The notes under the pieces: generated by a model | Told to the model about the DNA's origin: nothing | What the model saw: the letters and a program-made list of their open reading frames with translations, nothing else | Databases searched by the model: none | Program-made: the position numbers and the translations under genes | Shown here: in pieces, positions 1 to 21,245 of the stretch | Numbering within the stretch: position 1 is the first letter of the stretch | Layout: the number at the start of each line of letters is the position of its first letter | DNA from: a virus | Length of the DNA stretch: 21,245 bases | IMG/VR virus record: IMGVR_UViG_3300044613_002040 | Span: 1-21,245 of that record | Strand: one strand, 5' to 3'

Positions 1-1
1 A

Positions 2-526
2 GTAATTATCATTTTAAATCCAAATGATAGTTTATGGGGGGAAAATAAATATACTATTTTAAAACCAACATATACTAGAAACTCAAATGGTATTGGTTAT
101 ACTTTTACTGTTAATGGAAATTATAAAACAAATGGAGCAACTGTTTTATTTGGTAACAACTATTTAATGAATATTGAGTTAAGTCCTCAGTTTGTTCGTG
201 ATGATTCTAATAATGTAATTGATGGTGTATTAAACTTAAAGACACTTTGTATTCGTCACGCTGATACTGGTAACTACGATGTTATTGCTACTCGTAGAGA
301 AAGATCTATATTAAAATCTTCTTTCAATGCTTTACTTAGTAACTCTTATTCTGATGTTCTTAGTATTGAGAATACACAAAAATCAGGAGAGTTTATAGCT
401 AAGATTTTAGGTTTTTCAGATACAACAAAAGTTCAAATTGTTTCAGAATACCCAACACCAGTTAATATTGTTAACATGGAATTTAAGGGTAAATTTAAAC
501 AGTCATATACATCTTTAAATACATAA
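2..526 (+). CDS. Tail tubular protein B (T7 gp12-like), C-terminal part, 5' end outside window
   Basis: The frame is open from base 2 to the TAA at 524-526, giving 174 visible residues. The internal ATG at 167 is not the real start, because good coding sequence continues upstream of it to the window edge. The C-terminal part has the look of the T7 gp12 nozzle protein family: an LSPQFVRD segment, then LNLKTLCIRHADTGNYDV and a short tail ending in FKGKF. In T7 this protein forms the distal tail tube that DNA passes through. Its place directly upstream of a gp17-type fibre gene agrees with this. The family usually has several hundred residues, so most of the gene is missing. The call rests on remembered family resemblance plus context. 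Confidence 0.75.
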   Translation, partial: VIIILNPNDSLWGENKYTILKPTYTRNSNGIGYTFTVNGNYKTNGATVLFGNNYLMNIELSPQFVRDDSNNVIDGVLNLKTLCIRHADTGNYDVIATRRERSILKSSFNALLSNSYSDVLSIENTQKSGEFIAKILGFSDTTKVQIVSEYPTPVNIVNMEFKGKFKQSYTSLNT

Positions 527-533
527 GGAAATA
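525..533 (+). promoter_or_regulatory. Ribosome binding site AAGGAAATA of the tail fibre gene
   Basis: AAGGA starts inside the stop codon of the upstream gene, about 9 bases before the ATG at 539. The same A-rich AAGGAAT(A) string precedes several other starts in the window (4972, 6241, 11823, 16253), which supports these starts and suggests stop-proximal re-initiation. Confidence 0.7.
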
Positions 534-538
534 TTTTA

Positions 539-3523
539 ATGTCTACAAATACACAAGTAAAAACAAACTTAAGTACTTTATGGAATTCAACATCCGGTAC
601 TTCTTATTCAACTATTCCTTTATTATCAGGTATTAGTCACAAAGACCAATTAGAAATTGAAAGACCATTTACAACTCCAACAGGTATAACCTTAAAGCAA
701 GAAGACCTTAGAAGTATTTATGTAATTCCTTATGGAAACTATACTGTTGATGAAACTAATAAAAAAATTACAGCAATAACAGCACCAGCTACTTATGTTA
801 CAAGTAGTAATGTTACTGTAACTATTCCAGCTATTTCTAATGGAGATGTTCTTAGAATTAGACGAAAAAGCATTAGCAACGAATCTTTAGTTTCTTGGGT
901 TGATGGTAGTAGATTAACAGCTTCACAACTTAACTTACAAACAAATCAATTATTAAACCTTACCCAAGAAATTCTTGATAGATTAAAATATGAGTATGTT
1001 ACTTCAACCGATATTGACTATAATGCTACTTATAACTCTGCTACAAGAACTTGGGTAGAAGATCGTTTAGGTAGTTCTGGTTTTGCAAACTCAACACAAA
1101 CCGTAAAAGGATATGTTGATTCAACTGTTGGAACTAGAGATGCATTAATTACTGCTTTAAATACTAAAGTTGGAATTAGTGAAACTATTAATGGTTCTAG
1201 TAATACCAATGTTGTTACAAAATTAAACTATCTTGACGGATTACTTGGTAGTCAATTATTTACTGGTTTTCCTCAATCCAGTATTGTTATTGTAGGTACT
1301 AATGGTAGTAAAGATTACTCTACTAATTTTACATTAACTAAAGGTTCTCCTGATGTTTTAAACCTAACTGGAAATCAAAACATTACTGGAAAACTTAGTG
1401 TACAAGGTACATCTACTAATGATATTGTATCTTTTAAAAACTCAAGTGGAATTGAAGTAAATAAAATAGATCAATATGGAAATCTTTTAAGAGCTGCTGC
1501 TTCTACAGATGAACCTAGTAACCCAATTAACGGAACTTTATGGTTTAATGCGAATGCTGGTAATCAATTACAAATATGGGATGCAGACGATAGTTTATGG
1601 CGTATTCAAGGATCGTATACGGGTAGTTTAAACTTTGTTGGTTTAGCTGGAAATGAATCAATTTCTGGTAATAAGTGCTTTACTGGTAATACTGGTTTTG
1701 GTATGTCTGCTGGTTCTTTAGGTAAACTAGATGTTCAGGGTACTAGTGGAATTACTTCTTTTACAGGAACAACTAGACTAGGTGCTACAGTTAGAGGAGC
1801 AACTTCAACCACAGACTATAGTGGTATTGATTTTACTGGTGGTGCAACTACTGAACCAAAAGCAAGAATAGCATCTATATTTGGTGCTAGTGGTTCTAAA
1901 CTACAATTTGGTACTAGTAATAACTATACAAACGGAATTACTAATACAGCACTAACAATAGGTTCTGATGGAAATGTAGGTATTGCTCAATCCTCCCCAT
2001 CTTATAATTTAGATATTACAGGAACACTTAGAACTACTGAAAATACTCTAGTAGAAGGAACTCTTCGTTCTAATGGTGTAACTTCTTTAATGGCTAATGT
2101 TGGCATTGGAACAACTAGCCCACAAAGAAACCTTACTGTATATAATTCTACAAACCCAACAATACAATTAGTTAATGATACTTCATTGGCTACTAATGCT
2201 GACGGTATTATTCTTCAACTATTAAGTTCAGATGGTTATTTATGGAATTATGAAAACGGTGCTTTATCTTTAGGAACTAATAATACCGAAAGATTAAGAA
2301 TAACTGGTAATGGTGGAGTTGGTATTGGTACAAATAACCCAACTACCTTATTACATTTAAATACTACAACAACATCTAACTTAATTACACAAACAAATAA
2401 TAGTGGTGGTAGTTTACAAATAGGAATAAACAGTGATGGTGCTGGTTTAATTACACACACTGGACCGGGTATAGTTAATCCTTTAACAATTTCTTCTACA
2501 CAAGGTATTTCTTTTATCGGTTCAGATGTTTTAATACAAAACACTAAACAACTAAAAACAAATACAATATCATCAGTAGGTACTGAGTTAACCTTACAAA
2601 TTGATGCTGGAAATAAAGTAGGTATTGGAACAAGTATTCCATCAGAAAAACTTGAAGTAAGCGGAAACATAAAAACTACTACTGGAAATAAAATTATTTC
2701 TGATACAGTAGAAACTGGTATTATTCAAAGTTCTGGTACTATAGAATTTAGACAAGGCTATACAGCTAGCACAACTCCAGATATGACAATTAATGCGGAT
2801 GGTGAAGTTATATTTGCAAAAGCACCAAAAGTAAATACAACTGCGTTTTTAATTGCAGAAACACCAGTAATTGCTGGTCCTTATTCTTCATCAGGAACAA
2901 ATTTTAGATTTGGACATGCTTCAACAATTACTCATTATAACCAAACTACAAATCCTGTAATGTATAGAAAAATAGGACCAATTGTTTATGTTACTGGTAT
3001 TCTTAGTACAACCAAAACAATAGACGAAGATCTCGTTATATCAAATAGTAATGAAGATAGTAATGGTAATTCATTATTAAGAAATTTACCAATACCAGCA
3101 AACGGAGGAAAAGCACACTTTTTAGCTCAAGCTTGGTGTTGTTTTAAAAAAAGTTCAAATGAAAAATATCATAGACAGAGAATGATTATAAGTGGTTATA
3201 TAAGTCCATCAGGAAATTTAAGAATTAACGGTAGATTTTGGCGTGGTGGTGATCAAAGCGGAACTAGTATGTGGTCAGGAACTTCTACACCCCAAACATC
3301 AAGCGATGTATTAATGCTCTGGAGAGAAGGCAATGGATTAGGAGCTTCACCTACTACTGGTAGTCAAGATATTGGTGGAACAAATAACGGACAACCTTAT
3401 TTAACACCGTCGGGAACACAAGATTATCTTGGTTTTTATGCTTATAATGAAGCAGGTAGTAATAACATAATTACACCATCAAGTCAATATATTATATTTA
3501 ATTTTTCTTATTTAACCGCATAA
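539..3523 (+). CDS. Tail fibre with T7 gp17-type N-terminal anchor and VGIGT repeats
   Basis: This 994-residue protein begins with a region (about residues 1-140) typical of the T7 gp17 N-terminal domain, which fixes the fibre to the tail. It includes an RPFTTPTGITL-like segment, a YGNYTVDETN segment, an RIRRKS strand and SLVSWVDGSRLTASQLN followed by a short helix. The middle carries spaced copies of a VGIGTxxPxxxLxVxG-type unit near residues 478, 518, 592 and 692, with a degenerate copy near 386. Such units are common in trimeric fibre shafts. The last 200 residues or so (from about 790, HYNQTTNPVMYRKIGPIVYVTG) look like a receptor-binding tip. No chaperone-protease domain was recognised at the C-terminus. 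T7 gp17 is 553 residues, so this fibre is much longer. Specific receptor unknown. Confidence 0.85.
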   Translation: MSTNTQVKTNLSTLWNSTSGTSYSTIPLLSGISHKDQLEIERPFTTPTGITLKQEDLRSIYVIPYGNYTVDETNKKITAITAPATYVTSSNVTVTIPAISNGDVLRIRRKSISNESLVSWVDGSRLTASQLNLQTNQLLNLTQEILDRLKYEYVTSTDIDYNATYNSATRTWVEDRLGSSGFANSTQTVKGYVDSTVGTRDALITALNTKVGISETINGSSNTNVVTKLNYLDGLLGSQLFTGFPQSSIVIVGTNGSKDYSTNFTLTKGSPDVLNLTGNQNITGKLSVQGTSTNDIVSFKNSSGIEVNKIDQYGNLLRAAASTDEPSNPINGTLWFNANAGNQLQIWDADDSLWRIQGSYTGSLNFVGLAGNESISGNKCFTGNTGFGMSAGSLGKLDVQGTSGITSFTGTTRLGATVRGATSTTDYSGIDFTGGATTEPKARIASIFGASGSKLQFGTSNNYTNGITNTALTIGSDGNVGIAQSSPSYNLDITGTLRTTENTLVEGTLRSNGVTSLMANVGIGTTSPQRNLTVYNSTNPTIQLVNDTSLATNADGIILQLLSSDGYLWNYENGALSLGTNNTERLRITGNGGVGIGTNNPTTLLHLNTTTTSNLITQTNNSGGSLQIGINSDGAGLITHTGPGIVNPLTISSTQGISFIGSDVLIQNTKQLKTNTISSVGTELTLQIDAGNKVGIGTSIPSEKLEVSGNIKTTTGNKIISDTVETGIIQSSGTIEFRQGYTASTTPDMTINADGEVIFAKAPKVNTTAFLIAETPVIAGPYSSSGTNFRFGHASTITHYNQTTNPVMYRKIGPIVYVTGILSTTKTIDEDLVISNSNEDSNGNSLLRNLPIPANGGKAHFLAQAWCCFKKSSNEKYHRQRMIISGYISPSGNLRINGRFWRGGDQSGTSMWSGTSTPQTSSDVLMLWREGNGLGASPTTGSQDIGGTNNGQPYLTPSGTQDYLGFYAYNEAGSNNIITPSSQYIIFNFSYLTA

Positions 3524-3534
3524 AGGATTTTACT

Positions 3535-3798: not shown

Positions 3799-4270
3799 AG
3801 TATTCTTAACTATGTTGTTACTATGTGGTTGCTCTTCTGTTAATCAGATATCTACTAGTAACCACATAGTTCAAGAAAACGCAATTGAAATATTAAATAC
3901 AAAAGATATTTCTATAGCCCATAAACACGCTGGTATAATTCTAAATGAAACTAAAGACATTGCTTCAGCTATTAGTGGAGTTAAAGATATAACTCCTTGG
4001 TGGGCTAATTTAATTCAATATGGATTTATTGCTATAATCTTTATTGGTATTGTTATAATTCTTTGGCAAACTGGTATAGGACAAGTAATACGAGTTGCCA
4101 TAGGATGGATACCAAGTAATAAAAAGAAAGAAGCAGCACTAGCCCAGTCTGTATTGGACGAGTCTAAACCAGAGGGTGTAAGAGAATGGATTGCAGCCAA
4201 GCGTCTTAGTGACCCTGAGTTTGATGCTGCTTGGAGAAAGGAACAAAATGCCCGGACCAAGAAGAATTGA
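3791..4270 (+). CDS. Lipoprotein with internal transmembrane helix (unimolecular-spanin-like candidate)
   Basis: This 159-residue product has a lipoprotein signal: a short basic N-terminus, a hydrophobic MLLLCG core and a lipobox L-C-G-C with the modified cysteine predicted at residue 14. A hydrophilic helical stretch (about 20-66) follows, then WW and a clear TM helix at about residues 74-92 (LIQYGFIAIIFIGIVIILW), then a basic NKKK segment and a charged tail with DPEFDAAW. An acylated N-terminus plus an inner-membrane TM is the topology of unimolecular spanins such as T1 gp11. The extra C-terminal tail of about 60 residues is not part of that simple plan. The gene overlaps both neighbours, by 8 bases upstream and 23 bases downstream. 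It could instead be a virion or superinfection-exclusion lipoprotein. Confidence 0.6.
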   Translation: MNKVFLTMLLLCGCSSVNQISTSNHIVQENAIEILNTKDISIAHKHAGIILNETKDIASAISGVKDITPWWANLIQYGFIAIIFIGIVIILWQTGIGQVIRVAIGWIPSNKKKEAALAQSVLDESKPEGVREWIAAKRLSDPEFDAAWRKEQNARTKKN

Positions 4271-4961: not shown

Positions 4962-4971
4962 GGAATAATAT

Positions 4972-6240: not shown

Positions 6241-6666
6241 ATGGCTACAACAGCACAATATGTTTCTACTCCAGTTATTGAAGTTTCTCAAGTAACTACA
6301 GCTGATACTAGTAGAACAGCACCATCAACAACATCTTTAATTTGCTCAGGACCATCTGTAGCATCTGCTTCAGGAGTTGGCAAAAGAATTTTAAGAATTG
6401 TAATTCAATCAGTTAATAGCACAACAGCAGGAGCAGTTAGAATTTGGATATCTACTGATGGTGGTACAACTAAGCGTCTACTTGTTGAGAGAGTTATTCC
6501 AGCCATTACTGCAACCGCTGGTACTACTCCTCCATATAGATCTGAAGTACCTGAATTAGTTGGTCTAGTACTTCCCGGTACAGTTAGCAGCAACGCAACA
6601 AACTTATATGCATCTACAAATGTTTCTGAAACTTTTAATATTATTGTAGAAAGTGGTACACTATGA
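6241..6666 (+). CDS. Small beta-rich structural protein
   Basis: This 141-residue protein is rich in Thr, Ser, Val and Ala, with strand-like stretches such as KRILRIVIQSV, GAVRIWIST and a final ETFNIIVESG strand. There are no charged helices, TM segments or catalytic motifs. The pattern fits a compact beta-sandwich virion protein, for example a fibre cap or connector. It follows the previous gene with zero spacing and overlaps the next gene by four bases (ATGA), so it is probably made in step with the glycine-rich adhesin. I do not recognise a named family. Confidence 0.55.
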   Translation: MATTAQYVSTPVIEVSQVTTADTSRTAPSTTSLICSGPSVASASGVGKRILRIVIQSVNSTTAGAVRIWISTDGGTTKRLLVERVIPAITATAGTTPPYRSEVPELVGLVLPGTVSSNATNLYASTNVSETFNIIVESGTL

Positions 6667-7694
6667 ACTTAGGTTTTTTTGGTTTTCCTTCACAGAATAT
6701 AAATGAAAATGTTGATATTCAAGAATTTGATTCTAGTGGATTTTGGAGAAAACCAAAGGGTGCTAAACTAGTATGGGTATATCTTGTTGGTGCTGGTGGT
6801 GGTGGAGGAGGTGGTAGAGGAGCTATTAACGCAACAACAGCAGCCTCTGGAGGTGGTGGCGGGTCTGGTGGTGCTGGTGGATGGATGTTTTATCCAGCAT
6901 CCTTTCTTCCTAATTTATGTGAAATTATCATAGGTGCTGGTGGAACTGTTGGTGCTGGTGGTTCAACATCTAACGGTTCTGGTGGAGGGGCTGGTGGTGA
7001 AAGTGTATTTGGTAGACCACCCGGATTTTCTACTATCTTTAATAACCCAACTGTATATGGATTTTATGCAAGAGCCGGATTAGGTGGTGCTGGCGGTGGT
7101 TCAGCAGCAGCTGCCGGAGGAGCAACTAGAGGATTTAATGGACTCGCTTCTGGAGCTGGTGGCGCATCTTCTGTTACCGCAAACGCAGCAAACGCTGCAA
7201 TTCCCGGTCTTACTGGACCCGGTGGAGGTGGTGGAGGTGGTATTGCAGTTACATCAGGAACAGCTTATAACGGTGCTCAGGGTGCTCTAGGATCAAATCC
7301 CGATACATCAGGTGGTGGCGGTGGTGGAAGAGCTGGCAATGCCAATGGAACAGCTGGTACTGCTGGAACATTCCCAGATACAAGCACAACTTATATTGAC
7401 GGTGGTTCAGCTCCTTGGGATATCGCTACAAGCCAATACTATGGTTCTACTGGTTATACCAATGATAATCTTCTATTTAACTTTCAAGAAGGTGCTGGAT
7501 ATGGTGGGGGTGGAGGAGGGGCTAGATCTAACTCATCCGCTGGTGCTTTATCTGGTGGAGCTGGTGGTTCTGGCTATAGAGGAGGCGGTGGTGGTGGAGG
7601 GGGAGCTTGTGTAAACACAGGTGGAGGAACCTCAACAGGAGGTTCTGGAGGAAGAGGAGGAAATGGTTATTGTAAAATAATCACATTAATATGA
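6663..7694 (+). CDS. Glycine-rich tail adhesin candidate
   Basis: The product has 343 residues, of which about 109 are glycine by hand count (32%). It opens with a non-repetitive N-terminal part (1-48) ending in SSGFWRKPKGAKLVWVYLVGAG. This 'W-x-x-P-x-G-A-K-x-V-x-V' strand leading into a glycine run is typical of glycine-rich phage tail proteins. Many poly-Gly blocks (GGGGGGG type) follow, separated by short loops rich in Ser, Ala, Asn and Thr, and it closes with a GGNGYCKIITLI strand. Known glycine-rich phage adhesins such as the gp38 of Salmonella phage S16 pack such runs as polyglycine type II helices and bind receptors through the variable loops. The receptor-binding role here is inferred. 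The start overlaps the previous stop (ATGA). Confidence 0.65.
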   Translation: MNLGFFGFPSQNINENVDIQEFDSSGFWRKPKGAKLVWVYLVGAGGGGGGGRGAINATTAASGGGGGSGGAGGWMFYPASFLPNLCEIIIGAGGTVGAGGSTSNGSGGGAGGESVFGRPPGFSTIFNNPTVYGFYARAGLGGAGGGSAAAAGGATRGFNGLASGAGGASSVTANAANAAIPGLTGPGGGGGGGIAVTSGTAYNGAQGALGSNPDTSGGGGGGRAGNANGTAGTAGTFPDTSTTYIDGGSAPWDIATSQYYGSTGYTNDNLLFNFQEGAGYGGGGGGARSNSSAGALSGGAGGSGYRGGGGGGGGACVNTGGGTSTGGSGGRGGNGYCKIITLI

Positions 7695-7967: not shown

Positions 7968-8198
7968 ATGTCCGATAATAAGGATCTCATTAAACGCCTT
8001 AATGACCGTTTATTGAGCCAGTTGCTCTTAGACCTAGATGACCCCACCCGATGTACTCCGGGGCTTTATACGGTCATTAGAGGGCTTATAAACGACAATA
8101 GAGAGGTACTGGATGGTATCTCCCATGCTACACTAGATGAGTTAGAAGCCAAGATGGCTTCCAAGGCTCCTTTTAAGTTCAAAGCGTCCGCTGGATAA
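7968..8198 (+). CDS. terS: Terminase small subunit (TerS, T7 gp18-like)
   Basis: This 76-residue acidic/helical protein (LIKRLNDRLLSQLLLDLDD, then a GLYTVIRGLINDNREVL helix) fits the small terminase subunit of T7-like phages in size (T7 gp18 has 89 residues), character and position before terL. TerS recognises concatemeric DNA and regulates TerL during packaging. AAGGG at 7957-7961 precedes the start. Its base composition is odd: 104 of 231 bases are G or C (45%), against 33 of 100 just upstream (7861-7960) and 24 of 100 near the end of terL (9781-9880). It uses codons rare elsewhere here (CCC, CGG, GGG, GCC). Assignment rests mainly on context and general resemblance. Confidence 0.7.
   Translation: MSDNKDLIKRLNDRLLSQLLLDLDDPTRCTPGLYTVIRGLINDNREVLDGISHATLDELEAKMASKAPFKFKASAG
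7970..7982 (+). repeat. 13-base direct repeat GTCCGATAATAAG, copy 1
   Basis: This copy begins in the terS start codon. An identical copy lies at 8254-8266, so the pair brackets the GC-rich terS patch. A related string, GTCCG then CTGG then ATAAT, occurs at 8186-8199. Function unknown; a terminase binding site or a trace of recombination are possibilities. Confidence 0.6.
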
Positions 8199-8298: not shown

Positions 8299-9981
8299 AT
8301 GCAAGCACCACAAGAAATGATTGATGATTTTAGAAACCACCTATGGGCCTGTTTTAAGTATCTTGGTCTTGGAGAACCAACCCCATTACAGTACGCTATG
8401 GCAGAAGTAATGCAAAAAGGTCCAAAAGACTTCCAGTTACAGGCTGGCCGTGGTGCTGGTAAATCTGTAATCAATGCTTGTTTTGCTAGTTGGAGATTGT
8501 TAACAAATCCAAATAGAACCATTATGGTTATATCTGCAACTTCAGATAGAGCAATTAAATTTATTGGGCAAGTAAGAAAAATATTAGATGTTGTTCCTTA
8601 TTGTGAACACTTGAAACCAAAAGAGTTTGATAAAGATAATGCATTCGGTTTTAATGTAGGATCTAGAACTATCTTTGGTCAGGATCTATCTTGTTATGCT
8701 AAAGGTATTACAGGTCAGATAACTGGTAGCCACGCTGATGATATTATTGCAGACGATGTTGAGATTGAAGAAAATGCAGATACTCCTTCAGCAAGAGATA
8801 AACTTCTAAATAAATTAGCAGAGTTAGAACAAATTAGAAACAATACTCCAGATGGTTGTATTCGTATTCTTGGTACTTTCCAATCAACTGATAGTATTTA
8901 TGTTAAACTTTCAAATGCTTATCCTATTGTAAAGTTTCCGGCTATTGTTCCTAATCCAGATATTCCCGGTGAAATAGATAACTGTGCTGAGTATATCCTA
9001 AAGTTGGACCTAGAAGTAGGAGAATCAACACAACCAGAAAGATTCCCTTTAGATATTCTTAAGTCTAGAGAAGCTAAGATTGGTCCTAGGTTATTCTCTT
9101 TACATTATAAATTAGATCCTACCCTTAGTGATAGAGCTAAGTATCCCCTTAAGTTAGAAGATCTAATTGTTATAGATGTTAATCCAGAATTGTTTCCAGA
9201 AAAAATAACTTGGGAAAAAAGAGTAGTTAAAAAAATTGAATCTCATGGTATTAGTGGAGATCTTATTTATGAGCCTCAATGGATTAGTCAAAATTTTATT
9301 CCGTATTTACAAACTGCTATGTTTATTGATCCTAGTGGTCGTGGATCAGATGAAACAGCTATTTGTATTGCATCCTTTGTCAATGGGTATGTTGTCATAC
9401 ATGAATTGCTTGGTTTGCAAGGAGGATACGAAGAAGCCCTACTAAGAAAAATAGCAAAACTAATTTATGAATATGATATTAATCTAGTAAGAGTAGAGTC
9501 TAACTTTGGTGATGCTATGTATTGTAATCTTCTTAGACCAGTCGTTGCAAGTATGTGTGGACAGGTTTCAATAGAAGACTTTAGAGTTACTGGTTCTAAA
9601 GAAACTAGAATAATAAGAACATTAGAACCAATAATGGCACTACATAAATTAATTATAAACGCAAAAGCTATTAAAGATCCTGAAAATCAAAAACAAATTA
9701 CTAGAATAACAGAAAGAAAAGGTAGTCTAAAACACGATGACCGTGTAGATATCCTAGCTAGTGCAGTTTCTTATTGGCAAGATTCTTTATCTATTGATGC
9801 AGATAATCAAATAGAAAAAAATAAAGAACAAGAATATAAAAATACAGTTAAAGAATGGTTAAGCAATAAAAGAGTACTCGGTCTTTTAGGAGAACGAGTA
9901 AGTGGAGCCATTCTAGTTAACGGAAGTCAAAAGTTTAGAAATAAAGATTACCCAAATCTTTTACATAGGAGACTTAAATAA
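8299..9981 (+). CDS. terL: Terminase large subunit (TerL, T7 gp19-like)
   Basis: This 560-residue DNA packaging motor has the expected two-part layout. In the N-terminal ATPase, the Walker A loop GRGAGKS is at residues 50-56, Walker B DIIADDVE at 148-155 with catalytic Glu155, and the coupling motif ILGTFQS at about 190-196. In the C-terminal RNase H-like nuclease, FIDPSGRGSDETA carries Asp344, VRVESNFGD carries Glu400, and KHDDRVD supplies acidic residues at 480-484. T7 gp19 has 586 residues, so the protein is essentially full length. TerL cuts concatemeric DNA and drives it into the prohead through the portal with TerS. A GGAGG site fixes the start, and the stop overlaps the next ATG by one base (TAATG). 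Confidence 0.95.
   Translation: MQAPQEMIDDFRNHLWACFKYLGLGEPTPLQYAMAEVMQKGPKDFQLQAGRGAGKSVINACFASWRLLTNPNRTIMVISATSDRAIKFIGQVRKILDVVPYCEHLKPKEFDKDNAFGFNVGSRTIFGQDLSCYAKGITGQITGSHADDIIADDVEIEENADTPSARDKLLNKLAELEQIRNNTPDGCIRILGTFQSTDSIYVKLSNAYPIVKFPAIVPNPDIPGEIDNCAEYILKLDLEVGESTQPERFPLDILKSREAKIGPRLFSLHYKLDPTLSDRAKYPLKLEDLIVIDVNPELFPEKITWEKRVVKKIESHGISGDLIYEPQWISQNFIPYLQTAMFIDPSGRGSDETAICIASFVNGYVVIHELLGLQGGYEEALLRKIAKLIYEYDINLVRVESNFGDAMYCNLLRPVVASMCGQVSIEDFRVTGSKETRIIRTLEPIMALHKLIINAKAIKDPENQKQITRITERKGSLKHDDRVDILASAVSYWQDSLSIDADNQIEKNKEQEYKNTVKEWLSNKRVLGLLGERVSGAILVNGSQKFRNKDYPNLLHRRLK
9967..9972 (+). promoter_or_regulatory. Ribosome binding site AGGAGA
   Basis: AGGAGA in the last codons of terL lies 8 bases before the ATG at 9981 and supports this start for the first ejection protein gene. 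Confidence 0.6.
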
Positions 9982-10694
9982 TGGAACCATTAACAATGGG
10001 TCTTATTTTTGGCGGTCTATCTGCTGGTCAAAGTTTAATGAGTGGTTTGTTTGGAAGTTCTGCTGCTCAAGCACAAGCTATTCAAGCTCAACTACAAGCA
10101 AGAAATGCCAACTTTCAAAGACAATGGCAAATAGAAGCCAATAATAGAAACATACAGAAATCAAATATTGCTAAAACAATAGCTAATAGACAAATAGAAA
10201 CTGGTGCTATTAAGCAAAGAGCATTACAAGAAATATATGCAAAGCTTGGATATGATAATGCTAAAGGTCAATACAGTAAACAGACAAATCAAATAAATGC
10301 AGCCTTACTATCTAGTGTTTCTGGTAGAAATATTTCAGCTTTTTCTGGTACAGCAAGAGCTTTACTTAGACAAAACTTAGAAAACTCTTCTAATAATATG
10401 GCTAATTTAAGAATTAATTATGCAAACCAACAAAGAGATATTGTAACCGCTTATCAAAATAGTCTTGCACAAAGAGATTTTAATTATACAGAAATGCAAA
10501 CATTTATACCCGGAGATACTAGTACAATTCAACAGCCATCTATGTTAGGAACTTTAGGTATGGCTGGTCTAGCTGGTATTCAAGGCGGTTTAACTGGTGC
10601 TTTACTATACGGTAAAAATACATCAACACCTGATACAACCTTTACTGGATATAATTATCCCGGTACATTTGTTGGATCAGCAACTGGAAGTTAA
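9981..10694 (+). CDS. Internal virion protein, T7 gp14-like
   Basis: The 237-residue protein starts with a small-residue hydrophobic segment (about 5-30, MGLIFGGLSAGQSLMSGLFG). A long Gln/Asn/Ala-rich polar helical region follows (about 30-180, with AQAQAIQAQLQARNANFQRQ), then a second Gly/Leu-rich segment (about 186-210, MLGTLGMAGLAGIQGGLTGA). This matches the character of T7 gp14 (196 residues), which is ejected into the outer membrane as the first part of the DNA conduit. Its position as the first of four consecutive ejection-type genes agrees. The fold assignment is by pattern, not by alignment. Confidence 0.7.
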   Translation: MEPLTMGLIFGGLSAGQSLMSGLFGSSAAQAQAIQAQLQARNANFQRQWQIEANNRNIQKSNIAKTIANRQIETGAIKQRALQEIYAKLGYDNAKGQYSKQTNQINAALLSSVSGRNISAFSGTARALLRQNLENSSNNMANLRINYANQQRDIVTAYQNSLAQRDFNYTEMQTFIPGDTSTIQQPSMLGTLGMAGLAGIQGGLTGALLYGKNTSTPDTTFTGYNYPGTFVGSATGS

Positions 10695-11822: not shown

Positions 11823-14800
11823 ATGCCTCCAACACCAGAACAACTGTTAATTAATCCAGTCTCTCCAGCCTTTGATGTCAAAGGACCACAAATTGCAGAG
11901 CAGCCAGCAAAACCACAGGTTGTCGCAGAAGGTGAAGTATCTATGCCTGCACCAAACCAATGGATTGGTCAGATTGATTATGGATTAGATTGGGGTAGTC
12001 TTGGAGCAAAAGCTTTTGAAACAGCTTCGGTTGTGTATAAATCAGTTCTAGATTATGGATTAAGACGAAGACAAGAATTTGCTAGTGAAGATTTAACTGT
12101 ATTACAACAACTAGCAGATGAGGCGTCGCCAAATACTTCTGATGTTAATGAACTAATGTCTTGGGAGCAAGATAGAAAAAAAAGAGTTAATGATGTGTAT
12201 AGAAAAGCTCTTGAAAGACAGGGTGTTGATAGTCAAACTATTGAACAGGCTATAAATCCAGATAGAGATAAACCAGAAGTTAAATTTTCTGATTTCCAAA
12301 TGCCTGCTAGTGATTCAGAAAACTTAATAAGATTAAGTCGTTTTGTTAAACTAACACAAACAGATAATGATAATAAAATTAATAGGTTAAAAAATCTTCG
12401 TGTTTCTAATTTATTAAGTGGAATAAAAAATGAATTAAATAATGGATTTATTGGTACTAATCCAGAAGCTAATCCAGAAGAAATTAGAAGTAATGTTGGA
12501 ATGTGGGTTAGTAACTTAAGACAACAAGTAGCAGAGCTAGACCCAGTTAAAGATGCGTCATTAATTGCAGCATCTAATAACTATGCAGATGAAATTGAAA
12601 CACAATTACCAAGTATTTTACAAAGATCTTTAGGCAAAGAACTAGATAAAGTACAAGATACTTATGTAAAAACAATGTCTTTAACTGATTCTAAAGAAGA
12701 ACAAGAAAAAATTACACTTGATTATATTGCTGAAATTCAAAAACAATATGGTGATATTTCTTCTTTACTTGCAACAGAACCAAAAGCATATCCAATATTA
12801 GAAGAACATATAATAGAAAAACTAAAACAAGATCCTAATATGTGGTATGAATTTAAAACTAATAATTATAGATCTTTACAAGAAGCTAATATAAAAATTT
12901 TACAACAAATTGCAGATATTGATGCACCAACAGAAGAAGCAAGACTAGAAAAACTACAAGAACTTTTATTACAAAGAGAGACAATACAAAAAAGACAAGT
13001 TGATTTACAAAAAGAACTTGTAGATTTTAATCCTTATTATTTATCCCAAGAAAACCAACAACTTCAAGGAAGAATAAGAGATCAGTATGAGTCTACAACA
13101 AGTGGTCTTGCTCAAGATAGAATAACACAAATTACAGAAGAAAATAAACAATTACAAAAACTAGAACAAGACGAGTTAAAAGTATTTGTTGCTGATGCAG
13201 TACAAAAACACCAAAATCAATACGATATAAACGCAAGAGAAATAGAACAAGCAATAGATGCTGTTACTGATTTAAGAGTTAAAATGGATTTAACTGATAG
13301 ATATCCAACAAAAAAAGAGTTTTTTAATTTTATTAAAGCTCCTCTTGGTATGGAAAATGTTTCAGATACTATTACTGAAGAACAAATGTTACAGGCTTTA
13401 CCAAATAGTTTAAAAGCTGTTTTTGAGTTTTTACCATCAGATGCAAAAACAGGAAGAAAAGAAAAACCACAAACACCAGCTCAGTTTAAAGCTAGTTTGA
13501 TGGATAAAGTATTTAGAGAACAATGTTTAAAAATGGGTATTTGTTTAGAAGAAGATGGAAGTCTTTCTGCTGTTGATGATGTTGCTTTAGCTGTAGGTTC
13601 TGAGTTTATTAAAAGAAGAAATTCTACAGAATCTGCTACTGGTCATGTTGGTTACAAAGCAGCAGCTAATAAAAGTAAAGAAGATATTAAAGAAGAAAAC
13701 CTAACATATAGAGTATTAGATAGCGATGGTTTTGGTCTTGATGAAAACGAAACAAAAGATTTCACAACTCAAAAAATTAATGGAATTATGGAAGGAAAAC
13801 CAGATCCATCTTCCGGTCTTATATTTAAACTTACTCCCAATCAAAGTACTTTAAGAATACTTAGTGAACGACTTGGTACACCAGAAGCAAAAGAAAGACT
13901 TTTAGATGCTTGGTTGTCTGGAAAAACAGAAGTAAATAAAATAGATTTAGATAAATGGGTTAAAGAATCAGAACAGATTTTATTAACAGATACTTATGTT
14001 TCAGAAAAAGAACAATATAATTTTGATAGAACTAATTCTTTAATTCGATTTATGAGATGGGCTTCTAGAAAAATACCAAGTGGCGAAGAACTAGAAGCTA
14101 GAGGTGCTGGTAAAATTAACGGCAAATCTTTAATGGCTGAGTTTACTATGTTTGATCAATCATATCAAACAGCTTTAAATAAACTTAGAGAATTTACAAG
14201 TACAACTGATGGTATTAAACGAATTACAACCATACAACAAGCAATGGCAATGTTATCAAGACAAGGCGGTGGTATGTTTACGGCAGAAGGAAAAGCAGCT
14301 GTAGAATACTTAAGATCATTACACCCAAATGGTGATAATATTTTTGAAACATATATTGGAACTATTGCGCCAAATCTTGTTGGTGGAGCTACTACATGGG
14401 ATACGACTGTAATTAAAAATGTTCTAGCAAACTCTACAGAAGCACAGTCTTTATTTACTCCTATTGTTTTAGCCTTAAGTGTTTCTCCACCAAACGCAAG
14501 TCAAGAAGATGTTTTGGCTTTAGCTAAACAATTTGAAGGTACTTCTGGTATGGTTATTAAACTAAAACCAAACAAACAACAAGAACAAACCTTGGTTATT
14601 TCTAGTGATTATATGAATAGAGAATCCAAAGATATGAAGCCCTATTCAACAAAGAATCCAGATTTCCCATATAGTGTTTCACCTATGGTTGCTTTAAGAG
14701 AACAATTAGGACAAAGAGTTTGGAATGGAACTCCTCCCGGCATGACTATAGACGGTAAGCGAACTCAGTTTACTGATAGACAACTAGATAAAGATTATAT

Positions 14801-16217
14801 GTATAGAATGGTTTTAGGTGGGTTAAGCGGTCAATACACAATTGACGATGTTAAACAAAACCCAGATCTATCAAGTTTAATTGAAGGTTTATTTGAAGTT
14901 TATGGTGATCAAAATAGAGGAATGACACCAGAAGAAAGACTACAATATTTAGTACAAAAACCAGAAATACAAGATTGGTTATATTCTAAACAAACAGATA
15001 GAACAACACTTGGTCCAACAGCTGCTTCAAAGTATAGATGGTTAAAAGGTCATTTAGCAAACCCAAACTTAACAGCTACACCTTTCTTTGAGATTGGTTT
15101 AAACCACGAAACAAACTATAGCGATGATCCAGATAGTGCTGATCAAACAAGAGTATGGAGAGATCTAACTCAGTTTGATATGGAGTTAACAAGAGATTCT
15201 ATGTTTAAAAATACAATAGAATTACAACCACAATCACCTACTGGATTCCACAGATTGCCTGATAATACTTTAATTGCGGCAGATATTTATAATGAACCAG
15301 TTATATTTACAGATCCAACTACAAATAAACCACTAATGTTAGGCGATAGTCTTGATGGTTTTAATGTAGGTACAAACTCTGCTTGGCAAGAAAGCTTTAA
15401 TCCAATGCACTTTGCAGACTCAATTACTAAAAGTGGATACTCTGTAGAAATTCTTACAGATAAAGGACAAGTAGAAACAATATCAGCAGGCAATTTTGCT
15501 TTAGATAAAAGAATACAAACTTCTCCTAATATGTTTGAAACTATTAGTTATGATCCAAACAGTCGTGCTTTTATTAAAACCACAGAAATTCTAACTGGTG
15601 AAACAGGATGGCAAACAAGTTCATCCTTTATTAAAGTTAATAGACTTATTCCTATGGATCAAAAAAAAGAAAGAACAGAACAAGGATTGAGAAGTATTAA
15701 TGAAGAGTTTAAAAGAAATACTTTAGATAAAAACAAACAAGTATCTCCCGGTGCTGTTTCAGATAAACCATATATAAAACTTATATCAGAATTTGAGGGT
15801 TTAAAAACAGAAGCGTATTGGGATGATACTGGAAAAGTATGGACTATAGGTAAAGGTACTACAAGATATCCAGATGGAACACCTGTAAAGAAAGGTGATA
15901 AGATATCTAAACAACAAGCAGAAGATTTTGCCCAAAACTATGTTGATATAAAAGTAATCCCAACCTTAGAAAAAACAATTCCAACTTGGAATGAAATGAA
16001 TCCAAATCAACAAGCTGCTTTAGTTTCATTTGCTTATAATTTAGGCGAAAATTTCTATGGTAGAAAAGGATTTGAAACTCTTACAAAAGCTTTATCTAAT
16101 ATAAATACTTTTGACAAAGTTCCTGATGCTTTAAAACTTTATAATAAATCAGGCGGTAAAAAACTAGATGGTTTAGTAAGACGAAGAAAAGCTGAAATTG
16201 ATCTTTGGTTAAGTTGA
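11823..16217 (+). CDS. Large ejection protein with C-terminal GH24 lysozyme domain
   Basis: The product has 1464 residues. The bulk is helical, with a long Gln/Glu/Lys coiled-coil-like stretch at about 352-496. The C-terminal 150 residues form a T4-type (GH24) muramidase: SEFEGLKTEAYWDDTGKVWT, then IGKGTT, RYPDGTPVKKGD, an NQQAALVSFAYNLGENF segment and a final LVRRRKAEIDLW. The likely catalytic glutamate is Glu1325 in FEGL, with Asp1334 or Asp1335 and Thr1341 completing the E-D-T set. The extra residue between Asp and Thr makes the exact Asp uncertain. Such virion muramidases thin peptidoglycan during DNA entry. In T7 the muralytic domain is an N-terminal transglycosylase of gp16, so both enzyme type and position differ. 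No free endolysin gene is visible in the window. Confidence 0.85.
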   Translation: MPPTPEQLLINPVSPAFDVKGPQIAEQPAKPQVVAEGEVSMPAPNQWIGQIDYGLDWGSLGAKAFETASVVYKSVLDYGLRRRQEFASEDLTVLQQLADEASPNTSDVNELMSWEQDRKKRVNDVYRKALERQGVDSQTIEQAINPDRDKPEVKFSDFQMPASDSENLIRLSRFVKLTQTDNDNKINRLKNLRVSNLLSGIKNELNNGFIGTNPEANPEEIRSNVGMWVSNLRQQVAELDPVKDASLIAASNNYADEIETQLPSILQRSLGKELDKVQDTYVKTMSLTDSKEEQEKITLDYIAEIQKQYGDISSLLATEPKAYPILEEHIIEKLKQDPNMWYEFKTNNYRSLQEANIKILQQIADIDAPTEEARLEKLQELLLQRETIQKRQVDLQKELVDFNPYYLSQENQQLQGRIRDQYESTTSGLAQDRITQITEENKQLQKLEQDELKVFVADAVQKHQNQYDINAREIEQAIDAVTDLRVKMDLTDRYPTKKEFFNFIKAPLGMENVSDTITEEQMLQALPNSLKAVFEFLPSDAKTGRKEKPQTPAQFKASLMDKVFREQCLKMGICLEEDGSLSAVDDVALAVGSEFIKRRNSTESATGHVGYKAAANKSKEDIKEENLTYRVLDSDGFGLDENETKDFTTQKINGIMEGKPDPSSGLIFKLTPNQSTLRILSERLGTPEAKERLLDAWLSGKTEVNKIDLDKWVKESEQILLTDTYVSEKEQYNFDRTNSLIRFMRWASRKIPSGEELEARGAGKINGKSLMAEFTMFDQSYQTALNKLREFTSTTDGIKRITTIQQAMAMLSRQGGGMFTAEGKAAVEYLRSLHPNGDNIFETYIGTIAPNLVGGATTWDTTVIKNVLANSTEAQSLFTPIVLALSVSPPNASQEDVLALAKQFEGTSGMVIKLKPNKQQEQTLVISSDYMNRESKDMKPYSTKNPDFPYSVSPMVALREQLGQRVWNGTPPGMTIDGKRTQFTDRQLDKDYMYRMVLGGLSGQYTIDDVKQNPDLSSLIEGLFEVYGDQNRGMTPEERLQYLVQKPEIQDWLYSKQTDRTTLGPTAASKYRWLKGHLANPNLTATPFFEIGLNHETNYSDDPDSADQTRVWRDLTQFDMELTRDSMFKNTIELQPQSPTGFHRLPDNTLIAADIYNEPVIFTDPTTNKPLMLGDSLDGFNVGTNSAWQESFNPMHFADSITKSGYSVEILTDKGQVETISAGNFALDKRIQTSPNMFETISYDPNSRAFIKTTEILTGETGWQTSSSFIKVNRLIPMDQKKERTEQGLRSINEEFKRNTLDKNKQVSPGAVSDKPYIKLISEFEGLKTEAYWDDTGKVWTIGKGTTRYPDGTPVKKGDKISKQQAEDFAQNYVDIKVIPTLEKTIPTWNEMNPNQQAALVSFAYNLGENFYGRKGFETLTKALSNINTFDKVPDALKLYNKSGGKKLDGLVRRRKAEIDLWLS

Positions 16218-16238
16218 ATAACACACGCATTGCTTAAT

Positions 16239-16244: not shown

Positions 16245-16252
16245 TATAATTA

Positions 16253-19200
16253 ATGATTATTAATAACGATAATAACAATACAAATGAAACTCCACTACCA
16301 CAAATACCAACCAAGTCTCCTGCTTATCTAACTAAAGAACAAGGAAGACTTATTCAATCTAGATTTACTGGCTTTATTCCTTTATCTTTAGACCAAGAAC
16401 AAGCAATTGCAGATGAACAAATTAAAAACCAAATTAATGTTGAAACTAAAAACTATATGGGAACTCTTTGGTGGGATGATCCAAAACCAACCATAACCAA
16501 AGGTGAACTTATATCTCCAACAGAAAACGATAGATGGAACTTTCATGCTTGGGAAAAAAGCAAAGAATGGTTGGGTGGTATTACTGGTTTACAACCAATT
16601 CAACTAGATATTCAAAGTACTGCTTTGCGTGGAGTAGACGCAACTGGATATAATACTTGGTTGCCCGGAACTAGTTTAACACAAGAACTAGAAAAAGAAA
16701 GATTTAGAGTAGATAATAACTTTATTACTAATCGACAAAAAGAAGCAAACAATGCTATTCAATTTAGATATGGTGCTTATAATAAAGACGGAGAACCAGA
16801 GTCACAATCCACTTTAATTAAAACATTACTTGAACAAGAATACGGTGAAAAGTGGTATGATAATTTTGCTATTGGAACAAAAAACCCACAAGCATTCTTA
16901 GAGCAAGTTTATTATTTCTTAATGAACAAAGCAAACGAAACCACAGTTAAAAAAGAACTAATTGCAGATATTACAGGAAACGCAGAAACAACTAGTGAAG
17001 CAATGCAAAGATGGGTTACTCAAAATGTTATTGCTGATTACGATACTGTAAGAGATATATCTGCACAGGCTGCTCTAACTTTAGCATCTCTTGGTACTAG
17101 CACAATAGCACAAATTCCAACAGCAGCAACATGGGCTTTAAGAATACCGGGTATTGCTAAGACAGCTCAAAGATATGGAATGGCTGCAAAAAGAATTGAA
17201 GATATTTTACAAAGACAACAGGCTTTTATAAGATACTCTGGTGGTAATGTATTTAAAGCATTAAGATCCGATCTTAAACTAGCAAATACACCAATGAGAA
17301 GAGCTTTTAAAACTCTTGAAATAGGTGCAATAAGTAAACAACCAGTTAAACAAGGATCTTCAAATCCGTTTAATCCTATTTTCCAACCAAGAAACTGGAT
17401 GCAACAAAATAGATTAAAACTAATTGACAATGAAGGTGTTGTTCTTAAAGAAGGTTTATTACAAAATAGAGCACTACAAGCATTAAACAATATTGGATTA
17501 GGTTTAACTAATGTATTTACTTTAGCAGAATCAACATCAGCATTAGGACATGTCTTACAAGTTGCTAAAATAGGAGCTGCTTGGGGTGGAGTTGAAGGAT
17601 TAGCTAACTCTATTTGGTCGCAAAAATGGAAAGCTGAACAATTACTCCTACAAGAAAATAGAGATATCCCATCATTTGATTTATCTCAAACCATAGCAGA
17701 TACTGTTCTTATGGCTGGCTTTGGTTCTATCTTAGGTGTTGGTCTAGGTGCTGTTACAAGTCCTGTTAGAGGACTAATAAACCCACTTAGTGAGATCTTA
17801 GACGGCTCTTCTACACTAGGAACTAAGAATCCAAGAAGAGGTATTTTCCAGTTAATAGGACCAAACAGAGTAAGCCAAGCAAAGTGGGAACTACACAGTA
17901 TGCTTAAAAGAGCTGCTGGTGGTGGTGACTTAACACACATCCAAATAGCTAAGACAGCTAGCCTAGAACAAATTAGAATTCTAATTAAGCACCTAACAGG
18001 TGACGATACTACTGCTACACACTATCTAGATCCAAACTGGCTACAAAGTAATAATATTTCAGAACACGAAGTAAGAGCTTTAGTTGGACATGTAGTAGAT
18101 TCCTTATTACAAAGCAGTCCTGATAGAACTGTTCAACCAGTATCATCAGAACTATTTGCTGAAATTTTTGAAGGATTAGCAAAAGCAAAAGCAGAAGCAG
18201 AAGCTTCTGGTAATCCACTTCCTTCTGCTATGGATACGGATATTATTGCTGGCGTAGAGTTAAAAGAAAAACTAAGAAAATACGGAGCAACTGAAAGAGA
18301 ACCAACTGGTCCAGTAGAACTAGAGAAAACATTCTTATCAGCAGAAGAAATTGCAACAGCTGAAAAAGAACTAACAGATAAAATAACAAATAAACAAATT
18401 ACATTAGAAGAAGCTGAAGCAAGACAAAAACTTTTAAATAATGCTAGAAGAAAACTAAATGTTATTAACGATAGAACTAATAGAATTAAAGCAGCAAAAG
18501 AACAAAAGAAACTATTAGAAGAACAATATCCAAATCCAGAAGCAAGATCAGAAGAGATTTCAAGTTTACTTAATAACCTAAACAAAACAATTTCTACTGA
18601 AGAAACAAAGCTTCGAAAAAACTATAAAGAAAAAACAAATCCAGTTGTTATTGAAGAAAATACAGATGGATCTATTAGAAGAGTTGTTATTAATGGATAT
18701 GATATTAGTAATACAAGGGGTGGTTTCTTATTAACAAAATACTTAGATGTTCTAAAAAAACAAAAAGAAACATCAGCAATTAATGACGCTGCTCTTAAAA
18801 GACAAGCTAGAGAAAAACTAAATAAAGAACTAGACGCTATTGAAGCTGAAATGGATGCTTCATATAAACTAAATAAAGAAGGTAAAACAAGAGCCGAGTT
18901 AAGAAAAGACTGGGCAGAACACAAGTGGAATCAATTAAAAAATAATCCAATACTACTTGCTCAATTTGAAGAAGCTTTTACAAAAGGAATTGAAGCACAC
19001 AAACTAAGTCCTGAAGAAAGAGCTATCTCTATGAACTGGTATAATGAATTAAAGAACAATACCGGAGCTGGTAGGGTTTTCTCCAAAATGGCTACATGGG
19101 GAACAGGAACAACAGATGCTATGTATCAACTATCTGATCTTGTTTACTCTGCTTTTAGAATGGTTGATGATGGACAATTCTTTGCATACTCAGACCTAGC

Positions 19201-21245
19201 TAATCCATACCAAACCCTAAGTATTATGGAAGCTATTGGAGTTGGGTATAGAAAAGCAATGAGTATTAATTCAGCAATTGCTAGACTAAAGAAACAATAC
19301 CCAAATGCAGAAAAGAAAATTCAGCAAAGAGTTATTAGAGCTATTAGAGAAGGTAAAGACACCATAAATCCTAATGGTCTAACCGAAGATATGGTAAAAG
19401 AAGGCAACAGTCTTTTAAAAGAAACTAGAGATTTTTACAATTACGCTGCTGAACAAAGTAAAAAACTAGGTAAAAAATACGAAAACGCTTATACCTATTT
19501 CCCACAGATTCTATCTAGAAAACTAAGTAAAGAAGAAGTAGAAAGACTTGGAGTTCTTGGATATGAAGCAATGCGAGAAAAGATCAAAAAAGAAGGTATC
19601 TTATCTTGGGCAGAACTTGAAAGACTTGGTTTAATTGAAAGAGATGAAAACGGATCTATTATTAATATCCCAGAAACAAGTCTCTTCTACTTAACAGACG
19701 CTAGTGGAAAAGCTTTACCACTAGAAGAAATGCTAAAGCGTATGCCAAAAACCATTGATGAACTAAGAATCTTTGAAGCAAAACGAAGACAAGAAAGCGC
19801 AAAGGCTGGTGCTTTACCGCCAGACCTAGTAGAAGTTTTAAGTTCACCAATTAAACTGGCAACCTTATCTGACGAAGAAAAAGCAAAGGTAACAGAAAAA
19901 CTAAAGAGTATTATTGAAAGCAGTCTTAAGAGAAGTGAATCAGACGCACTTGGAAATAATATGGATCTTTGGATGGCAGGAAGAAACTTATTACTATTAA
20001 CTCAAAGAGCAAATGAATTTGGTGATACAGCTACACTAGAATGGATTGCTGCTTTAAAGAAAAACCTAAAAGAAAAACGAGGTATTGAGTTTAACGAAAC
20101 ACCAGAAAACCCAACAGTAGAAGTATTAAACTCAAAGGAAAGTGTTAAAGCAGAAGATAACCCAACTCTTAAAACAGTATTTGTTGGTAGTCCTGAAATT
20201 AAGATTACAAAAGAAAACAAAACTACAGTTGTAGATCCCGGTTCTGTATTTAAAAAGTGGGTTCCTGAAAAAGAATCAGTTGAACCAGTTATGCCAAACA
20301 TGTCCTTTACAAGCAAACTTGCCAGTGAACTTGATAAGACAAACCCATTTACAAAAGAATCACAAGAACTTGGTGTTCAATATACACAACATGTACTAGC
20401 AAAACAATTAGCTGCTAAGTTTGGATTAGAAGAACCAACAGCTTTTGCTAGAGGATTTAATCTAGAAGATATTCAAGATAGTTTAGTAACACTAGAACAT
20501 CTTATTGATTGGACAAACCACGAAGATTTTATTAATGAAGTTGAAGTACTTTATAAAACATACAAAGGAAAAATTTCAAAAGTTGATATTGGTATGGTTG
20601 TACTTGGTGGTTATGTTAGAAGAGCAAAAGAACATAACCTAAGTTTATTAAAAGCTTTAACACCAGAACAATTATATAAAGTACAAAGAGAATTCCATAA
20701 TGTTAACTTATTAACTTTAAAAGCTAGATATGAAGGTTCTCCAATTAAAGCAATTAATCCAGTTGATTTACTTAATAAAGTATTTAAGGATAGTGGTGTT
20801 AGAGTTGAAGCACTAAAGGGAAAAGCTTTATGGACTCCTACTTGGGAACATACAACAAAGTTTGAACCAAAGTCATTACGACAAGAAAAAGCTAGTTTAG
20901 AATTAGAATATCCAGATCCAACAAGTAGACCAAAAGTTGTTGAAGAACAACTAAAGCAGTATGATTTAGATATACAAAATCTAGAAACATTTGAAACACA
21001 ATGGAAAGAAACTCAACGAATTAGAAGAGAAGCTAGAAGAAATGAAACTAGAATTACTGCTATAGAAAAAGCAATTAAAAAACTAGAAGAACAAGAAACT
21101 TTTATTGAAGCAAATAAAAAAGAACTATCTGGTAAATCTAAGTCAGCTAAAAGAAAAAAAGAAACTCAATTATCTATTCTTAAAGCTAGACAAGAAGAAC
21201 TAGCAAAGGCTTTATCTACACCAACAAAACCAGTAAAGTTTAGTA
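16253..21245 (+). CDS. Giant ejection-type virion protein (gp16 position), 3' end outside window
   Basis: The frame opens at ATG 16253 and has no stop to the window end, giving at least 1664 residues (T7 gp16 has 1318). The N-terminus is polar and Asn-rich (MIINNDNNNTNETPLPQIPT). Two hydrophobic or small-residue segments lie near residues 272-300 (ALTLASLGTSTIAQIPTAATW) and 481-500 (ADTVLMAGFGSILGVGLGAV). Coiled-coil-like Lys/Glu-rich stretches occupy about 690-800 and 1540 to the end. No enzymatic motif was recognised, and there is no transglycosylase signature at the N-terminus as in T7 gp16. Position after gp14-like and lysozyme-bearing genes suggests the inner-membrane/cytoplasmic part of the ejectosome. 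A polymerase-type giant virion protein as in phage N4 cannot be excluded without the C-terminus. Confidence 0.7.
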   Translation, partial: MIINNDNNNTNETPLPQIPTKSPAYLTKEQGRLIQSRFTGFIPLSLDQEQAIADEQIKNQINVETKNYMGTLWWDDPKPTITKGELISPTENDRWNFHAWEKSKEWLGGITGLQPIQLDIQSTALRGVDATGYNTWLPGTSLTQELEKERFRVDNNFITNRQKEANNAIQFRYGAYNKDGEPESQSTLIKTLLEQEYGEKWYDNFAIGTKNPQAFLEQVYYFLMNKANETTVKKELIADITGNAETTSEAMQRWVTQNVIADYDTVRDISAQAALTLASLGTSTIAQIPTAATWALRIPGIAKTAQRYGMAAKRIEDILQRQQAFIRYSGGNVFKALRSDLKLANTPMRRAFKTLEIGAISKQPVKQGSSNPFNPIFQPRNWMQQNRLKLIDNEGVVLKEGLLQNRALQALNNIGLGLTNVFTLAESTSALGHVLQVAKIGAAWGGVEGLANSIWSQKWKAEQLLLQENRDIPSFDLSQTIADTVLMAGFGSILGVGLGAVTSPVRGLINPLSEILDGSSTLGTKNPRRGIFQLIGPNRVSQAKWELHSMLKRAAGGGDLTHIQIAKTASLEQIRILIKHLTGDDTTATHYLDPNWLQSNNISEHEVRALVGHVVDSLLQSSPDRTVQPVSSELFAEIFEGLAKAKAEAEASGNPLPSAMDTDIIAGVELKEKLRKYGATEREPTGPVELEKTFLSAEEIATAEKELTDKITNKQITLEEAEARQKLLNNARRKLNVINDRTNRIKAAKEQKKLLEEQYPNPEARSEEISSLLNNLNKTISTEETKLRKNYKEKTNPVVIEENTDGSIRRVVINGYDISNTRGGFLLTKYLDVLKKQKETSAINDAALKRQAREKLNKELDAIEAEMDASYKLNKEGKTRAELRKDWAEHKWNQLKNNPILLAQFEEAFTKGIEAHKLSPEERAISMNWYNELKNNTGAGRVFSKMATWGTGTTDAMYQLSDLVYSAFRMVDDGQFFAYSDLANPYQTLSIMEAIGVGYRKAMSINSAIARLKKQYPNAEKKIQQRVIRAIREGKDTINPNGLTEDMVKEGNSLLKETRDFYNYAAEQSKKLGKKYENAYTYFPQILSRKLSKEEVERLGVLGYEAMREKIKKEGILSWAELERLGLIERDENGSIINIPETSLFYLTDASGKALPLEEMLKRMPKTIDELRIFEAKRRQESAKAGALPPDLVEVLSSPIKLATLSDEEKAKVTEKLKSIIESSLKRSESDALGNNMDLWMAGRNLLLLTQRANEFGDTATLEWIAALKKNLKEKRGIEFNETPENPTVEVLNSKESVKAEDNPTLKTVFVGSPEIKITKENKTTVVDPGSVFKKWVPEKESVEPVMPNMSFTSKLASELDKTNPFTKESQELGVQYTQHVLAKQLAAKFGLEEPTAFARGFNLEDIQDSLVTLEHLIDWTNHEDFINEVEVLYKTYKGKISKVDIGMVVLGGYVRRAKEHNLSLLKALTPEQLYKVQREFHNVNLLTLKARYEGSPIKAINPVDLLNKVFKDSGVRVEALKGKALWTPTWEHTTKFEPKSLRQEKASLELEYPDPTSRPKVVEEQLKQYDLDIQNLETFETQWKETQRIRREARRNETRITAIEKAIKKLEEQETFIEANKKELSGKSKSAKRKKETQLSILKARQEELAKALSTPTKPVKFS

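Follow-up and report, generated by a model that had tools for sequence, protein, structure and literature searches.

CCWGG and Pro-Gly in the virus contig

The window analysed here is the whole of IMG/VR record IMGVR_UViG_3300044613_002040, a virus contig of 21,245 bases with 15 genes, all on a single coding strand. It encodes a T7-like terminase, a tail fibre and a lysozyme-bearing internal virion protein, and its late genes run in one direction in the Autographiviridae manner; judged by this gene set, it is a fragment of an uncultured T7-like phage. Our subject is a word that the window lacks, CCWGG (CCAGG or CCTGG), and the way in which its avoidance bears on the dipeptide proline-glycine (Pro-Gly), whose coding sequence necessarily contains CCNGG.

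CCWGG occurs on neither strand, as the initial annotation had claimed. A maximal-order Markov model predicts 16.4 copies, and synonymous codon shuffling of the 15 genes gave a mean of 15.5 and a minimum of 9 in 2,000 runs; when the shuffle was restricted to classes defined by the base that opens the following codon, the mean was 15.1 and the minimum 8, again in 2,000 runs. The word ACGT is missing too. None of the 2,000 codon shuffles came down to the window's count of either word, and both have an observed/expected ratio below 0.1 with an expectation above 15 (CCWGG 0/15.5, ACGT 0/28).

The related word CCSGG (CCCGG or CCGGG) is found 15 times, at exactly the positions first reported (Table 1), and every copy is a frame-0 Pro-Gly codon pair. 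Proline before GGN is CCC in 12 cases, CCG in three and never CCA or CCT, counts that we reproduced. The preference is reversed before other codons that begin with G (CCA 58, CCT 17, CCC 1, CCG 1; Fisher p = 2e-15 against the GGN context), and a recount of terL, the gene for the terminase large subunit, returned the same 24 CCA or CCT codons among its 27 other prolines. Because CCA and CCT prevail over CCC and CCG by 75 to 2 before GAN, GCN and GTN, the bias at Pro-Gly is not a general effect of a following G. It spans all of the genes in the window and extends to close relatives, in line with the initial annotation. The dipeptide itself is in mild deficit (15 against 22 expected), which alone is not significant.

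Avoidance in the window and its clade

The window avoids more than CCWGG and ACGT. CTGCAG is also absent (0 against 5.7 by codon shuffling) and TCGA (5/20), CASTG (3/10) and CATG (18/29) are depleted, with GATC at its normal level (61/64.5). The earlier statement that avoidance is not general therefore holds for GATC but not for ACGT and CTGCAG, which are as completely absent as CCWGG; the interpretation offered at that stage was right in kind and too narrow in scope.

Relatives were collected from viral contigs, 64 initially, with more added by means of an alignment query. We refer to the window's own clade, whose complete relatives measure 62-66 kb, as clade A. Its four long genomes contain 0, 0, 1 and 1 copies of CCWGG against about 33-44 expected, so the absence seen in the window is shared by its close relatives, and 0, 0, 0 and 3 copies of ACGT against about 102-108. 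Out-of-frame CCWGG is likewise lacking in clade A (0 against about 50). ACGT is absent or nearly so in this clade and in its nearest sister clades, but most of the wider family has it at ordinary levels. Many further six-base palindromes are missing from the complete relatives, CTGCAG, GGYRCC and RGCGCY among them; six-base palindromes with four G/C positions stand at 0.24-0.32 of expectation in these genomes, against 0.97-0.99 for non-palindromes of equal G+C. GATC shows a further site switch: it is absent from two relatives (L132 and L141; 0 against 43 and 47), and elsewhere in the family it occurs at its usual level.

Opposite avoidance in sister lineages

The lineages near clade A, with terL proteins 68-78% identical, contain no CCGG and no ACGT, yet they carry CCWGG; one branch of them also lacks GGCC and CGCG. 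All of their Pro-Gly pairs are written with CCA or CCT, and 50 of 54 CCWGG copies lie at Pro-Gly; the other 4 are out of frame, where about 34 would be expected. Where clade A and the sister clades have a Pro-Gly in common, a proline codon ending in C or G faces one ending in A or T in 18 of 18 comparisons, drawn from four clade A/clade B genome pairs that have genomes in common and so are not independent. Other shared prolines mostly end in A or T in both genomes (131 of 144 between G006 and G034).

We followed the trait on a terL tree of 105 rows, a quick maximum-likelihood tree from a short search, in which many terL sequences are identical, so that row counts are not event counts. CCWGG status switches 7-8 times on this tree. 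By rows, 55 avoid CCWGG only, 30 are depleted of CCGG or GGCC only, 4 show both and 2 neither. In seven independent pairs, CCGG/GGCC depletion went in the opposite direction to CCWGG in 6-7 and never in the same direction (p ~0.03). When CCGG alone was considered in 95 lineages, 61 avoided only CCWGG, 22 only CCGG, none both and 12 neither. Eight IMG/VR metagenome numbers each hold both types of avoidance.

A comparison of 18 avoider with 10 keeper genomes (observed/expected) identified the palindromes that separate them best: CCWGG (16/1018 against 310/456), CTGCAG (13/313 against 110/170) and GGCC, which is depleted in the keepers (1257/1338 against 90/465). GCWGC, CAGCTG and CCWWGG are unaffected across both groups, and the normal counts of the first two rule out a general avoidance of palindromes containing CWG. 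CCWGG, CTGCAG and GGCC each coincide exactly with the target of a Type II enzyme, and the depletion, low for CCWGG and high for CCSGG, fits an exact Type II recognition sequence rather than a compositional class. Among the one-step neighbours of CCWGG only CCSGG is markedly over-represented, at 1.94 times expectation; CTWGG, which deamination would yield, stands at 1.28 in CCWGG-avoiders and 1.19 in keepers. These values bear out the proposal of strong selection against CCWGG itself, a site of the EcoRII type, as opposed to deamination.

Since Pro-Gly always contains CCNGG, either CCWGG or CCSGG can be avoided by codon choice but never both while the dipeptide is kept, and avoidance of CCWGG and of CCGG is for this reason mutually exclusive. 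Where all CCNGG is avoided, loss of the dipeptide is predicted.

Pro-Gly in isolate phages

This prediction was examined in 23 isolates, taken as whole genomes or as substantial portions of them, which we selected mostly from terL match lists; the controls T4, lambda, sk1 and c2 were chosen before their numbers were known. Isolates that avoid only CCWGG spell Pro-Gly with CCC or CCG (P-SSP2 28/28, CHF1 17/17, cp43 28/28), those that avoid only CCGG spell it with CCA or CCT (P-SCSP-R27W 34/34, P-SCSP1a 23/23), and those that avoid neither use all four proline codons. In avoiders of both, Pro-Gly is largely gone: observed/expected counts are 0/20 in ICP3, 0/22 in AS12, 0/17 in HTVC025P, 2/32 in CRP-125, 2/21 in PM16, 1/20 in PS3 and 7/32 in T7. 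The Lactococcus phages sk1 (1/9) and c2 (1/12) are similarly poor in it, and it is not depleted in T4 (30/27), whose cytosines are modified, or in temperate lambda (30/23).

Out-of-frame CCNGG, a measure independent of Pro-Gly although its expectation is small in phages of low G+C (3 in HTVC025P, 8 in sk1, 6 in c2), was avoided in step with the scarcity of Pro-Gly (rho 0.85, p = 2e-7, n = 23); this and the correlations that follow ignore kinship. Of 256 dipeptides in the isolates, Pro-Gly tracks CCNGG best (0.84, next 0.57). Gly-Pro, whose coding sequence always contains GGNCC, is the dipeptide that best tracks that word (0.65). The CCNGG/Pro-Gly correlation is weaker in the uncultured family (rho 0.44, p = 0.014, n = 30). 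We consider it probable, on this evidence, that restriction pressure edits phage proteomes and that a dipeptide which cannot be encoded without a restriction site becomes in effect prohibited.

Several individual phages stand out. In T7, HTVC025P, ICP3, AS12, CRP-125, PM16 and PS3, few dipeptides fall as far below expectation as Pro-Gly; the proteins of ICP3, PM16, PS3 and HTVC025P also contain little or no Gly-Pro, which is likewise one of the rarest there. Ala-Ala, always GCNGC, occurs twice against 47 expected in the Pelagibacter phage HTVC025P and is possibly a third forbidden dipeptide there. The stretch of the Roseobacter phage CRP-125 has 89 Gly-Pro and 2 Pro-Gly, with two collagen-like proteins annotated. 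The Limnohabitans phage YIMV22061 has 3 GC-rich six-base palindromes against 615 expected, with CCWGG in excess (363/247).

Genes of the window and its relatives

The features of the window are collected in Table 1. A DNA-level comparison of the window with phage records gave no match, and among the matches listed its terL protein is at most about 37-38% identical to those of isolate phages. A 343-residue protein at 6663-7694 consists mostly of glycine runs and matched no family. Relatives have giant open frames in their late region that exceed 4,100 residues (L087:5366-19354 in G018; L082:8708-20000 and onward in G015).

Table 1. Features of the 21,245-base window.
Feature	Position	Strand	Basis or remark
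T7-type tail fibre, N-terminal domain PF03906	539..3523	+	Pfam domain
CCGGG, Pro-Gly	2465..2469	+	tail fibre gene
CCCGG, Pro-Gly	4251..4255	+	Pro-Gly of gene 4248-4961; out of frame in overlapping gene 3791-4270
CCCGG, Pro-Gly	6574..6578	+	
CCCGG, Pro-Gly	7020..7024	+	glycine-rich protein
CCCGG, Pro-Gly	7203..7207	+	
CCCGG, Pro-Gly	7218..7222	+	
Terminase small subunit	7968..8198	+	phrog_1351
CCGGG, Pro-Gly	8058..8062	+	terminase small subunit
terL, terminase large subunit	8299..9981	+	phrog_38, E=2e-95; basis of tree
CCCGG, Pro-Gly	8965..8969	+	sole Pro-Gly of terL
CCCGG, Pro-Gly	10509..10513	+	
CCCGG, Pro-Gly	10659..10663	+	
Internal virion protein, 1464 residues, C-terminal phage lysozyme domain	11823..16217	+	PF00959
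CCCGG, Pro-Gly	14736..14740	+	
CCCGG, Pro-Gly	15747..15751	+	
Very large open frame, at least 1664 residues, interrupted by window end	16253..21244	+	open frame
CCCGG, Pro-Gly	16664..16668	+	
CCGGG, Pro-Gly	17147..17151	+	
CCCGG, Pro-Gly	20237..20241	+	

The longest relatives are 62-72 kb, with terminal repeats detected in four. One that was annotated closely has genes for a single-subunit RNA polymerase, a T7-type portal, a primase-helicase, ThyX, ribonucleotide reductase, dUTPase, GMP reductase and a PurA-like protein; PF00940, PF12236, PF05396 and PF21268, the set for RNA polymerase, portal, capsid assembly and primase-helicase, are present in complete relatives and not in the window. Pfam models, whose positive controls matched, found no DNA methyltransferase of PF00145 or PF02086 in the relatives searched and none of PF01555 in 35 relatives. 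Integrase was not among the best 25 of 32 Pfam families of one complete relative, in which no search was aimed at integrases.

The PurA-like adenylosuccinate synthetase (L075:402-1505, with homologues in G002, G005 and G012, all of clade A) has the motif GDEGKGK and scores 106.8 against a PurZ cut-off of 300, which does not qualify it as a Z-genome enzyme. We rejected a PurZ-like base modification in CCWGG-keepers: the gene is PurA-like, was found only in genomes of the CCWGG-avoiding clade A and is absent from CCWGG-keeping genomes, the wrong way round. GMP reductase lies in G006 at L074:19341-20000 and runs on into L075. Clade A relatives also encode tRNAs that read codons ending in A (Leu-TAA, Arg-TCT, Lys-TTT, Ile-TAT, Glu-TTC). 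Together with these two enzymes, such a gene set could turn host G into A, and it suggests that the host has a higher G+C content than the virus.

Discussion

Our findings are best explained by selection, very likely exerted by Type II restriction systems of hosts that vary from one virus lineage to the next. Host enzymes with these specificities would be the selective agent, and a switch in avoidance would reflect a change of host or of the host's restriction repertoire. The virus keeps Pro-Gly solely through CCC or CCG, yielding CCSGG, a route that is workable only as long as CCGG is tolerated; sister lineages, presumably under restriction of the CCGG/GGCC type, do the reverse, with CCA or CCT at Pro-Gly and no CCGG.

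Three observations weigh against this interpretation. A search for the host through terL over 84,980 genomes found no related contig, so that any cognate enzyme is putative. CCWGG and GGCC are jointly avoided in only 4 of 94 lineages, a near exclusivity for which there is no coding reason and which more likely reflects host repertoires. Finally, T7, P-SSP2, CHF1 and cp43, which are distant T7-like phages with hosts of widely differing kinds, avoid CCWGG and CTGCAG together. A simple account in which each host sets its own avoided words would predict less uniformity: either enzymes with these specificities are extremely common, or the two words are disfavoured in T7-like phages for some additional reason. 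Such a reason, intrinsic to replication, transcription or packaging and unconnected with restriction, is unlikely. It would accommodate the joint scarcity in those four phages and the scarcity of CTGCAG in almost every T7-like phage considered, including those with abundant CCWGG; however, CCWGG is at or above expectation in YIMV22061, the Prochlorococcus phage P-SCSP1a (62/28) and phiNFS, and within the family the trait has been gained or lost repeatedly, with a different Type II site depleted in its stead. We regard as quite unlikely the idea that a phage-borne endonuclease attacks host DNA at CCWGG and CTGCAG, with the phage genome kept free of sites for self-protection. The salvage genes (GMP reductase, adenylosuccinate synthetase, ribonucleotide reductase and dUTPase) make degradation of host DNA plausible, but in a comparison of 14 avoider with 6 keeper genomes no gene family follows the CCWGG trait (the nearest to it, a family of 80 residues, is present in 12/14 against 2/6), and the set of avoided words varies by lineage.

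CCWGG is a classic site of 5-methylcytosine, so that Dcm-like methylation in the host followed by deamination or biased repair could in principle have removed it without selection. The mild rise of CTWGG in avoiders fits this proposal, yet that word is almost as high in keepers; the only marked excess, CCSGG, involves a change of the middle base from A/T to C/G, universal at shared Pro-Gly, and ACGT and CTGCAG vanish as well. These data already contradict a mutational loss, which is highly improbable. A preference in translation for CCC or CCG before G has nothing in its favour beyond the raw bias and merits practically no credence: it is contradicted by the proline codons before GAN, GCN and GTN, by the lack of out-of-frame CCWGG in clade A and by the opposite bias of the sister clades.

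Comparable losses have a published precedent. In the survey by Rusinov et al. (2018, PMC6286503), roughly one viral genome in ten has lost sites completely or nearly so, a pattern characteristic of phages that are not temperate and of orthodox Type II sites. The present virus shares with the non-temperate double-stranded DNA phages of that study the near-complete loss (<0.1) of orthodox Type II palindromes, and it may share their non-temperate life; no methyltransferase of its own was found with the models searched. Differences from the portion of that paper considered here are that this family loses several sites together, that sister lineages exchange CCWGG for CCGG/GGCC avoidance, and that our analysis resolves codon choice at one forced dipeptide, dipeptides not being discussed in that portion.

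Two isolates offer instructive parallels. Escherichia phage T7 (CCWGG 2/54, GATC 6/125, CTGCAG 0/13) has the same type of genome plan and avoids CCWGG and CTGCAG, but it has also lost CCSGG and most of its Pro-Gly and has normal ACGT, whereas the present virus retains Pro-Gly as CCSGG and lacks ACGT; among the matches listed, T7-like terL proteins are less than 40% identical to that of the window. Cyanophage P-SSP2 (terL 37% identical) resembles the virus in CCWGG (1/36), in its use of CCC or CCG at every Pro-Gly and in the absence of CTGCAG, and differs in its normal ACGT, its 46 kb genome and its photosystem gene.

Restriction-site avoidance is itself well known and is generally regarded as a silent property of the DNA of phages. 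Its switching between lineages and its effect on protein sequence seem to be undescribed, as far as searches of an open-access library show. The family provides a clean natural experiment in which closely related viruses have arrived, several times over, at opposite codon solutions under one amino-acid constraint. Avoidance of half of CCNGG leaves a synonymous escape, as in the window, and avoidance of all of it would, if our reading is true, cost the proteins the dipeptide. The extension to isolates suggests that an old immune pressure alters protein sequence, and it yields a quantitative prediction for any phage genome. The avoided words may also be read as a fingerprint of the restriction enzymes that are likely to be found in the hosts of each uncultured virus.

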